Below are positions 58,212-60,770 of a stretch of DNA of 64,000 bases, in pieces. The translations under genes were made by a program, and so were the position numbers. Within the stretch, counting starts at the first letter, position 1; each line of letters starts with the position of its first letter. The notes beneath the pieces are model-generated. The model was not told the DNA's origin. It saw only the letters and a program-made list of their open reading frames with translations, and made no database searches. The DNA is from Pleomorphomonas diazotrophica (GTDB lineage: Bacteria; Pseudomonadota; Alphaproteobacteria; Rhizobiales; Pleomorphomonadaceae), in the NCBI RefSeq assembly GCF_002844595.1, contig NZ_PJNW01000013.1, positions 1 through 64,000 of the forward strand. The letters run 5' to 3'.

Positions 58212-58561
58212 CGTGGTCCTTCTGTCGGAATGGCGGCGCGGCCCCGTCTGGTGAAATCCCCGCCAGCGAGGATTGATGGGCCTATCCTGCCTCGTCAAGC
58301 ATATTCGCGTTGAGGCCGAACCCATGGCTGCAAGCGACTGCACGTCGGAGCTTGGGAGGGGCGCATCCGTCGACCGAGACATCCGTCGCCAAGCGGCCGT
58401 CCTGGATTTCGGACGATTGTGTTCTTGTTTGGGCTTCGACGGAGAGTTTATAACCGACGCAGTGGTTATCGACCACAGGGGGATGTCGTGCATTGCAAAG
58501 GGAGTCAGGCCCTATGCCGCGCAGTTGCCACCTTCAGCCGACGACATGATGGGACACGGGC
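58212..58561. other. Divergent intergenic region lgt / tetR
   Basis: 350 bases. It contains the operator at 58450-58469 and A/T-richer sequence around 58430-58470 where the tetR promoter probably lies. Open frames over it have no ribosome-binding sites and shadow composition, so no gene is called. Confidence 0.5.
58450..58469. promoter_or_regulatory. TetR operator upstream of tetR
   Basis: ATAACC-N8-GGTTAT palindrome, sharing the ATAACCGACGC half with the site at 59196-59221. It lies about 95 bases ahead of the TetR gene start. Confidence 0.7.
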
Positions 58562-59134
58562 ATGCCTCGACCTAAACTTCATTCGGACGCGGAGATCCTG
58601 CAAAAGGCAAAGGCCGTCCTGTTGCGCGAGGGGCCGGTCGACTTCACGCTTTCCGATGTCGCCGAGGCAGTCGGCATGTCGCGGGCCGCTCTGATCCAAA
58701 GGTTCCAGGACAAGGCGACCATCCATCGCCGGATCATGGAGGAGATGACCGAGGAGGTGAGGGCGTTCTTTGCCGCGTCGCATGCCGAAAGGGATCTCCA
58801 GTCGCTGTGGGTCTTCCTGAAGGACATGATCGACGGCATGGACGCGGAGGTGGGCAGCGAAGGCTACCTTCTGTTGTTCTGGGGCGACATCATCGATCCG
58901 CACCTCCGCGCGCTCGCCCTTGAGAGAAACGAACTCGTCCGGAAAGCCATCGAGCAGCGGCTGCCGCTTCGGCCGCATGATCCCGAGCGCATGTCCGGGT
59001 TGATCCAGTCCGCCCTGCAGGGCGCCTACATGCGCTGGATGGTGAGCCGGGAGGGAACTCTCTCGGCTTTCATGCGCGAAGAGGTGCGGGAGATCCTGAC
59101 GGTCCTCTATCCCGAAGAGCGCTTCCAGCCGTAG
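58562..59134 (+). CDS. TetR-family regulator
   Basis: 190 aa. The N-terminal HTH is DAEILQKAKAVLLREGPVDFTLSDVAEAVGMSRAALIQRFQDK; the rest is the helical ligand-binding domain with LFWGDIIDPHLRALALER and a hydrophobic helix YMRWMVSREG. Matching palindromes before this gene and before the next one (59317) point to repression of both. The ligand is unknown. Confidence 0.9.
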   Translation: MPRPKLHSDAEILQKAKAVLLREGPVDFTLSDVAEAVGMSRAALIQRFQDKATIHRRIMEEMTEEVRAFFAASHAERDLQSLWVFLKDMIDGMDAEVGSEGYLLLFWGDIIDPHLRALALERNELVRKAIEQRLPLRPHDPERMSGLIQSALQGAYMRWMVSREGTLSAFMREEVREILTVLYPEERFQP

Positions 59135-59195
59135 CGGCGTGCCCTGTTCGCAGCCGTCATCGGCCAGCGATCGCTGGTTCCAGGAATGCGTCTTG

Positions 59196-59221
59196 TATAT
59201 AACCGACGCGACGGTTATATA
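59196..59221. promoter_or_regulatory. TetR operator upstream of the RlmN/Cfr-like gene
   Basis: Ten-bp perfect arms TATATAACCG / CGGTTATATA around six bases. The core ATAACC-N8-GGTTAT is the same as at 58450. It is A/T-rich enough to overlap a promoter and lies about 95 bases ahead of ATG 59317. Confidence 0.75.
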
Positions 59222-59316
59222 CCCTTTCGCGCACGGACAGCCCATTGGCGTGCCCGTGAGTGCGCATGCCGGGCCATCGGCATCAAAACGCACCGATCGC
59301 CCGAAAGGAGGGTGGA

Positions 59317-60348
59317 ATGACCGAGGGGACACCGGCCTTGGGGCTCACCGCGAGCGAGTTTGCCGCGATTGCCGGGACCGAGCCATCGACCGTCGCGTAC
59401 CGGGATCTCTTCATCCGGCACGATGACATGCCGAGGGAGCTGCGGCGTTGGGCGGATGCGCGGAACGTCCAGCTTCGCACCCTGAGCAAGGTCAAATGTG
59501 AGCGAGGGAAGCGGTCGCAGAAGGTACTGTTCGGCCTTTCGGACGGTTACGCCGTCGAGAGCGTGATGATCCAGCGCCGCGATGGCTTCACCGCCTGCAT
59601 TTCCTCCCAGGTCGGCTGCGCCTTCTCCTGCCGGTTCTGTGCGTCAGGGCAGGCGGGGCTGAAGAGGAACCTCGGCAGACACGAGATCGTCGAGCAGGTC
59701 GTTCGACTTGGCCCGAAGGTCAATCGGATCGTGTTCATGGGCATCGGGGAGCCATTGAACAACTATGAAAGCGTCCTGGCCGCCATCCGCATCATGCGGG
59801 ATCGCGACGGAATGCGCTTTCCCACCACGGGCATCACGATTTCGACCATCGGCATACCGAAGGCACTCGCCCGGCTGCGCGAGGAGCACCTCGGGATCAA
59901 CCTGACCGTCTCGCTCCACGCGACCACGCAGGACGTGCGCGACAGGCTGATTCCCGGCAGCCGCAAGCACGACCTCCGCGAGGTCGTGGCGCGGGCGATC
60001 TCCTGGGCGGAGCGGCACAACCGCATCGTGACCTTCGTCTATCTCCTTCTGCCGGGGCTGAACGACGGCCGAGCGGATGCGGAGCGCCTCGCCCGAATGC
60101 TTGTCGGCAAACCCGCGCGAGTCAACCTGATGCGATGGAATCCGGTCGAGAGTGTCGACCTCGGCCGATCTGCGGATCACCAGCTTCATCACTTCCGGCA
60201 ACGGCTGGTTCGAGCCGGCGTGCCGGTCGTGGTGCGCGACACGCAAGGGGCGGACATCGATGCCGCCTGCGGCCAACTATGGCTTCGCGACCTTCACGGC
60301 CTGAAGGCGGCGCAGCGGATGAGAACGCAGTATGGGGCCGCGGCGTGA
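59317..60348 (+). CDS. RlmN/Cfr-family radical SAM 23S rRNA methyltransferase
   Basis: 343 aa. The radical SAM cluster is C-x3-C-x2-C (Cys101, 105, 108 in VGCAFSCRFCASG), with conserved Cys94 upstream in FTACISSQ, and the methyl-carrying Cys near 318 in DIDAACGQL. RIVFMGIGEPLNNYESV and ISTIGIPKALARL are family motifs. RlmN makes 2-methyladenosine at A2503; Cfr adds 8-methyl and gives multidrug resistance. Sequence alone does not tell which. A GGAGGG site precedes ATG 59317, and a TetR operator lies upstream, unusual for a housekeeping rlmN. Confidence 0.9.
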   Translation: MTEGTPALGLTASEFAAIAGTEPSTVAYRDLFIRHDDMPRELRRWADARNVQLRTLSKVKCERGKRSQKVLFGLSDGYAVESVMIQRRDGFTACISSQVGCAFSCRFCASGQAGLKRNLGRHEIVEQVVRLGPKVNRIVFMGIGEPLNNYESVLAAIRIMRDRDGMRFPTTGITISTIGIPKALARLREEHLGINLTVSLHATTQDVRDRLIPGSRKHDLREVVARAISWAERHNRIVTFVYLLLPGLNDGRADAERLARMLVGKPARVNLMRWNPVESVDLGRSADHQLHHFRQRLVRAGVPVVVRDTQGADIDAACGQLWLRDLHGLKAAQRMRTQYGAAA

Positions 60349-60467
60349 GACGACCGGGAAAGGCCTTTCCCGAATGGGCAGTCGCGAGCCCCCATCATCT
60401 TCTGCTTGAAGCGGAGCCGGCGAGGGGCCAAATAGAGGGTCTGGCCCGCCATTCGGAGACGACTGCC

Positions 60468-60770
60468 ATGACGACCGGCCCGCAGGGACGCATCTACGAC
60501 GAATTCGCCAAGCTGATGAACGACGCCGCCGGTCTCGCCCAGTCGGCGGGACGCGAGGTCTCCTCGGCCTTCCGCGCCCAGGGCGAGCGGCTTGCCTCCG
60601 AACTCGACCTCGTCCGCCGCGAGGATCTCGAAACGGTGCAGGACATCGCCACCCGCGCGCTCAGCGAAGTGGAGCGTCTCACCGCCCGCGTCGCCGAGCT
60701 GGAGGCGCGGCTTGCCGCCGACAATGTTACCCACAGCGAAGCCGGGCCGGGAACCGTCGACGGGCCATAA
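60468..60770 (+). CDS. ubiK: Ubiquinone biosynthesis accessory factor UbiK (BMFP domain)
   Basis: 100 aa. QGRIYDEFAKLMNDAAGLAQSAGREV and the coiled coil VRREDLETVQDIATRALSEVERLTARVAELEARL are the YqiC/BMFP pattern. UbiK assists the aerobic ubiquinone pathway and has membrane-fusogenic activity. The ATG lies after a 120-base gap from the radical SAM gene. Confidence 0.88.
   Translation: MTTGPQGRIYDEFAKLMNDAAGLAQSAGREVSSAFRAQGERLASELDLVRREDLETVQDIATRALSEVERLTARVAELEARLAADNVTHSEAGPGTVDGP

Follow-up and report, generated by a model that had tools for sequence, protein, structure and literature searches.

An MphR-like repressor gene followed by an MrmA-related radical-SAM methyltransferase gene in Pleomorphomonas diazotrophica: a probable macrolide-inducible resistance unit

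The stretch of Pleomorphomonas diazotrophica DNA analyzed here (64,000 nucleotides, hereafter the window) holds a two-gene unit in which a gene for an MphR-like repressor is followed by a gene for an MrmA-related methylase, all parts facing the same direction (Table 1), and which probably represents a macrolide-derepressed ribosomal methyltransferase unit giving inducible macrolide resistance. The pair is an extra, non-housekeeping one of sporadic and mobile spread, and two separate lines, an MphR-like regulator with its operator and an enzyme of MrmA-sister placement, point to macrolides as the drugs concerned. In the scheme proposed, whose derepression, resistance and 23S rRNA target are what we infer, the MphR-type repressor would bind two MphR-type operators, silencing the methyltransferase gene and, in this locus, the repressor gene as well; on entering the cell, a macrolide (erythromycin, for instance) would bind the repressor, which would then leave the DNA; and the MrmA-type radical-SAM enzyme, now made, would methylate a ring carbon of a 23S rRNA adenine near the macrolide site, so that the drug would bind poorly.

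Table 1. Features of the repressor-methyltransferase locus (window positions).
Feature	Position	Strand	Details
Operator 1	58450..58469	+	ATAACCGACGCAGTGGTTAT; 92 bp upstream of tetR; exact ATAACC-N8-GGTTAT palindrome
TetR/MphR-type repressor gene, 190 aa	58562..59134	+	Pfam PF00440; MphR(A) matches; Foldseek
Operator 2	59199..59218	+	ATAACCGACGCGACGGTTAT; 98 bp upstream of enzyme ATG; exact palindrome
Radical-SAM methyltransferase gene (RlmN/Cfr superfamily, MrmA-related), 343 aa	59317..60348	+	Pfam PF04055, RlmN/Cfr models, trees
Stretch missing where genus genomes have lgt beside the BMFP gene	about 58301..60395		limits by eye

The initial annotation had described a TetR gene with a radical-SAM gene right behind it, the complete set of RlmN/Cfr cysteines in the latter and the same operator core before both genes, all of which was borne out, coordinates included, by Pfam, the RlmN/Cfr models, the alignment and the two exact palindromes. 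For the enzyme, the list of open reading frames uses an upstream GTG (59260), whereas the ATG at 59317 comes after AAAGGAGG. The pair is flanked by lgt (58211-57375, minus strand) on one side and by a BMFP-family (UbiK-type) gene (60468-60770) on the other, the latter followed by a YbjN gene (Pfam) and then by uvrC (by eye), and no resistance genes are seen among its neighbours in the window (lgt, BMFP and YbjN by Pfam, the others by eye).

The repressor matches MphR(A) over its full length, both alone (E 4.6e-36, 41% identity) and as part of a profile of 13 repressors (E 7.1e-53, and 2.6e-51 for the engineered form 6u18), the next family found by the profile being AcrR at an E of 2.1e-8. The helix-turn-helix is near-identical in the two proteins (G(L/M)SRAALIQRF, i.e., GLSRAALIQRF/GMSRAALIQRF), the AlphaFold model of the repressor (mean pLDDT 83.5) retrieves MphR chains at Foldseek ranks 1-6 (E 2e-10 to 7e-9, the next match being at 1e-4), and a search of the genome with MphR(A) at E 0.01 matches the window repressor alone. 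On these matches, the repressor descends from the family of MphR, which responds to erythromycin and other macrolides (PMC4551912, PMC9662819), and it would be expected to bind macrolides and to repress at its operators, which lends support by descent, through regulator and operator alike, to the earlier suggestion of a drug-controlled enzyme. A repressor gene is seen in 24 of the 26 loci compared (one of the other two, L011, is cut by a contig end, and L047 shows none in the stretch considered). Two repressor genes are visibly damaged: in Sphingomonas sp. LC-1 (L009, 1381-2847) an 843-bp insertion with DDE-transposase genes breaks the repressor gene and the enzyme gene is open, and in the Rhodobacter plasmid pEJ03 (L042, 5344-7100) IS1247 sits inside the repressor gene at its 5' end, leaving a shortened reading frame.

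The operator palindrome, ATAACC-N8-GGTTAT, is expected by chance 0.20 times per 64 kb at up to two mismatches, at least two matches turned up in 3 of 100 shuffles, and the only exact occurrences in the whole genome are the two sites of the window, with one further place at one mismatch. A larger regulon was considered and rejected, there being no third exact operator genome-wide and a single place at one mismatch, and a narrower pattern gave five places at two mismatches. Upstream of the enzyme gene, an operator-like site (up to two mismatches) is present in all 26 loci scanned, the window included and L043, the second copy of L042's module, left out; 12 of these sites are exact, 11 carry one mismatch and three carry two, many of the loci being near-copies, so that 18 sites are distinct, and only 0.14% of 20,000 simulated 150-base stretches contained such a site. 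Upstream of tetR, a site with up to one mismatch was found in just 8 of the 24 loci showing a tetR (the window; exact in L004, L005, L014, L023 and L024; one mismatch in L013 and L020) and no operator-like site in the other 16, so self-repression does not seem to be general. When a matrix of the 18 distinct sites was run on the sequence upstream of mph(A) from a Citrobacter plasmid, which we take to be the footprinted MphR(A) operator, it scored 31.3 bits, as compared with a maximum of 7.0 among 60 length-matched simulated sequences. The promoter region of mph(A) is known to overlap the MphR(A) binding site (PMC11215539); a sigma-70 promoter scan showed nothing at either operator of the window. 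A different arrangement is seen in L014 (1973-2883), where a class-I SAM methyltransferase gene stands between the repressor and enzyme genes and is directed away from the latter, with the operator-like site between them, so that one site may serve both divergent genes.

Counted from the ATG, the enzyme has cysteines C94, C101, C105, C108 and C318, corresponding to C118, C125, C129, C132 and C355 of E. coli RlmN and kept in all 20 aligned window-type proteins, and its AlphaFold model (mean pLDDT 83, below 50 at residues 317-326 and 328-343, with C318 in the low-confidence part) matches RlmN structures at ranks 1-10 and Cfr at rank 11. On TIGR00048, the RlmN equivalog model, it scores 274.3 bits, below the cut-off of 290, as against 385.8 for the genome's own RlmN. 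Two trees, of 97 and 60 rows, gather the window type (20 rows in the first, 17 in the second) into a single clade (100/99), which pairs as sister with the clostridial clade that holds mrmA (100/100 and 100/99) and lies outside both the RlmN clades and the Cfr clade (three Cfr proteins used). The sister relation stays when Cfr is omitted (SH-aLRT 100); with MrmA omitted, the window type shifts beside actinobacterial RlmN, long branches being flagged. The 97-row tree dropped L002, L003 (same gene as L099), L020 (split gene), L043 and L007-L011 (near-copies of L006), the 60-row and group-omission trees were built from some of the rows, without the P2 group, the cysteine table further dropped L105, and the shared-residue and rRNA-contact tables dropped L105, L108 and L111. 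Sixteen positions are common to the window and MrmA types only, as opposed to 1, 0, 4 and 1 for the other cross-pairings and eight for RlmN with Cfr, in a count over 20 window-type, six MrmA-type, 64 RlmN and only three Cfr rows. By trees and shared residues, then, the window enzyme descends from the MrmA family. The mrmA gene itself was recognized in L086 and L109, two members of the clostridial clade, where both published cloning primers match exactly and the protein starts with MKRLPKYT and ends with NKFKKK. MrmA, the macrolide resistance methyltransferase A of Clostridioides difficile (Tn6105/Tn6110/Tn7806), raised the erythromycin MIC 512-fold, and that of streptogramin B modestly, in E. 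coli lacking tolC, that report leaving its target adenine open (PMC11983580).

The superfamily is further represented by an MrmA-type gene directly behind hflX and followed by two small genes and tetB(P) on a Paraclostridium plasmid (L044, 1893-7891), an enzyme gene split across two reading frames in Brevundimonas bullata (L020, 2944-4007), and a further RlmN-like paralogue forming its own clade in six genomes from other families of the phylum (L093-L098; 214-226 bits on TIGR00048).

That the window gene would be a second enzyme, as the initial annotation had supposed, is upheld by the genome search, which found a separate housekeeping RlmN (contig C9; 386 bits on TIGR00048) that groups inside Rhizobiales RlmN, where the window enzyme, at 37% identity to it, does not fall; a housekeeping identity for the latter is thereby ruled out by the second copy, the tree and the model score. 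Among 20 genomes of the family, own included, the housekeeping type is present in all and the window type in four, each of which has the housekeeping copy too (in G016 as fragments from two contigs), one of the four having its enzyme elsewhere in the genome at 68% identity. Across the order, four of 297 genomes match the enzyme at E 1e-60, own included, and in a phylum sample six of 398 do so, namely the window's own genome and five that belong to a single family (38-43% identity, grouping apart). Two RlmN-type matches are found in all 14 sampled genomes of the family f81 (e.g., G343), both being over the RlmN cut-off in 13.

The kept RlmN active-site cysteines and a model score just under the cut-off (274 vs 290) could be taken to mean that the pair encodes a macrolide- or stress-induced second RlmN, placing m2A on A2503 or on tRNA A37 and tuning translation without resistance. 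This is, however, unlikely: with a normal RlmN present at 386 bits, m2A should already be there, eight positions that are invariant across RlmN and Cfr (R184 of Cfr, an rRNA contact, included) are altered in the window type and MrmA, and the distribution is scattered, with relatives standing beside resistance genes.

Quite unlikely, too, is a Cfr-like PhLOPSA enzyme methylating C8 of A2503 and protecting against phenicols, lincosamides, pleuromutilins, oxazolidinones and streptogramin A, with the TetR sensing one of these. In its favour speak the fold and cysteines common to the superfamily, the linkage of relatives to floR, a phenicol pump, the retention of the Cfr rRNA contact R249, and the fact that the MrmA-type group adjoins Cfr in both trees (94/87 and 93/89); the placement of that group with respect to Cfr and Gram-positive RlmN is not stable when groups are omitted and involves long branches. 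Against it, the Cfr models give the window enzyme 195.1, 194.6 and 191.7 bits, far below their cut-offs of 530, 550 and 468 (a cfr(A) protein scores 627-647) and no higher than the genome's own RlmN, only one residue is common to the window type and Cfr alone vs 16 with MrmA, the contacts S182, R184 and R185 are replaced, and the regulator is MphR-like. Furthermore, mrmA left the MICs of chloramphenicol, clindamycin, linezolid and tiamulin, as well as tylosin, unchanged (PMC11983580). The Cfr likeness put forward initially therefore stands at the level of the superfamily and fails at that of the family, Cfr membership being ruled out by models, trees and shared residues, and, as the enzyme groups with MrmA and not with Cfr, the predicted drugs are macrolides (plus streptogramin B) instead of the Cfr classes.

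In the Cfr-rRNA complex, a S182-x-R184-R185 stretch contacts the H90 strand, to which R249 makes another contact (PMC13001441). This stretch reads P-x-T-G in the window enzyme and P-x-D-G in MrmA. Taken one by one, its three contact positions carry P, T or S, and G in the window type and proline or serine, aspartate or serine, and glycine in the MrmA type, as against a serine in 46, an arginine in 60 and an arginine or lysine in 60 of the 64 RlmN rows. Both types retain R249, and K250 is retained in MrmA but lost from the window type; at K49 most window-type proteins have R, and MrmA shows a gap; R25 and Q28 are lost in both types and Q36 lies in a gap, the N-terminal alignment being unsure. 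With residues replaced that contact rRNA in Cfr and are mostly retained in RlmN, the enzyme probably grips RNA differently from either, and the replacement of S182, R184 and R185 in the window type and MrmA suggests a target other than A2503, against which the kept R249 counts. The one 23S rRNA gene of the genome that was looked at encodes adenines at what we take, through E. coli motifs, to be positions 2058, 2059 and 2503, all of these candidate targets thus being present. A bolder reading, to which we would give somewhat less than an even chance, is that the MrmA type corresponds, among radical-SAM enzymes, to Erm, its members methylating a macrolide-site adenine (A2058, A2059 or A2062, not A2503) at a ring carbon, and that in Alphaproteobacteria they are under an MphR-type macrolide switch and move between genera on floR/tet(G) elements; if so, their activity would have gone unseen because annotation calls the enzyme a housekeeping RlmN.

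Relatives of the pair are scattered, mostly over alphaproteobacterial hosts, one scan alone having returned 19 genome loci of many genera with the enzyme at 69-85% identity; a single Desulfovibrionaceae locus (L019), on a 6.3-kb contig, could be contamination. In seven of the 19 (L006-L012) lysR-floR lies downstream of the enzyme gene, and L016 has lysR only. Near-identical copies occur in Brevundimonas, Kaistia, Sphingomonas, Devosia, Pseudogemmobacter, Allorhizobium and Rhodobacter, with lysR-floR adjacent in eight of nine such loci, and the DNA of the pair in L008 is 99.38-100% identical, over the aligned parts, to that of the eight other loci compared. Two Rhodobacter xanthinilyticus plasmids (25 and 29 kb) carry lysR-floR-tetR(G)-tet(G) flanked on each side by IS1247; their records, the only two among the near-identical copies with annotation in the data used, name the enzyme gene rlmN and flag floR and tet(G) as resistance genes. 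That the mobile genes linked to the relatives are floR and tet(G) and none for macrolides counts against the macrolide reading. The idea that pieces of the enzyme gene might persist before floR in other places was set aside, since, of 2374 partly matching plasmid records, two (Rhodobacter) cover at least 80% of tetR-rlmN-lysR-floR, and, among the matches listed, the other 28 of 30 start inside lysR. A viral origin was likewise rejected, two viral-contig scans with the window proteins having found no relatives; the same kind of scan with a clostridial MrmA-type protein gave five loci, four of them MrmA-type (62-99%) and one RlmN-like. A literature search, most subscription journals lying outside it, returned nothing about the module for floR together with rlmN, and nothing for MphR together with RlmN.

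Closer to home, lgt adjoins the BMFP gene in 10 of 14 genus genomes (own included), the pair follows lgt in three, and one shows neither arrangement; the pair is open and conserved at the same place in two or three other genus genomes (enzyme 85-86%, TetR 91%), L004 and L024 possibly being one genome and the enzyme of L004 being identical to that of G016. That the pair is a mere passenger, i.e., acquired DNA of no present function in its host, might be read from its absence at this place in those 10 genomes and from neighbours that are not resistance genes, but is very unlikely given open and conserved genes with catalytic residues and operators kept.

Should the macrolide-inducible resistance reading be true, Gram-negative Alphaproteobacteria would hold an unrecognized, drug-inducible macrolide-resistance gene, and the pair, in which a sensor of macrolides is joined to an enzyme type with a target left open in the MrmA report, would give independent support for the macrolide role of that family. 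It would also supply a simple search recipe for more members, namely an RlmN-like gene preceded by an MphR-type operator.

Among known systems, MrmA is like the window enzyme in forming its sister clade, in being an extra copy beside a housekeeping RlmN, in having all the catalytic cysteines, the 16 shared derived residues and mobility, and in scoring below 290 bits on the RlmN model (278 for MrmA, 274 for the window enzyme). It differs in that identity is only 43%, so that the substrate may have shifted, in that about ten residues in the N-terminal part of the window enzyme lack a counterpart in MrmA, and in that the window type has an operator and, in most loci, an adjacent MphR-type repressor, occurs mostly in alphaproteobacterial hosts and has lysR-floR adjacent in 8 of 26 loci. 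MphR(A) resembles the window repressor in its full-length identity (41%), near-identical helix-turn-helix and matching operator, but it is encoded last in the operon mph(A)-mrx-mphR(A), behind a phosphotransferase gene, whereas the window repressor gene lies upstream of the methyltransferase gene that it is predicted to control. Cfr (cfr(A), cfr(C) and cfr(D)) and the housekeeping RlmN both share superfamily, cysteines and fold with the window enzyme, which, however, is only 33-36% identical to Cfr, far under the Cfr cut-offs and altered at S182, R184 and R185, and which, as compared with RlmN (37% identity to the own copy), falls under the RlmN cut-off and outside the RlmN clades, and is extra, sporadic and adjacent to a repressor gene. 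Erm methyltransferases belong to an unrelated class of enzymes and modify A2058 at its N6 amino group instead of at a ring carbon; what the window enzyme would share with them is the outcome, i.e., macrolide/streptogramin B resistance via 23S rRNA methylation.
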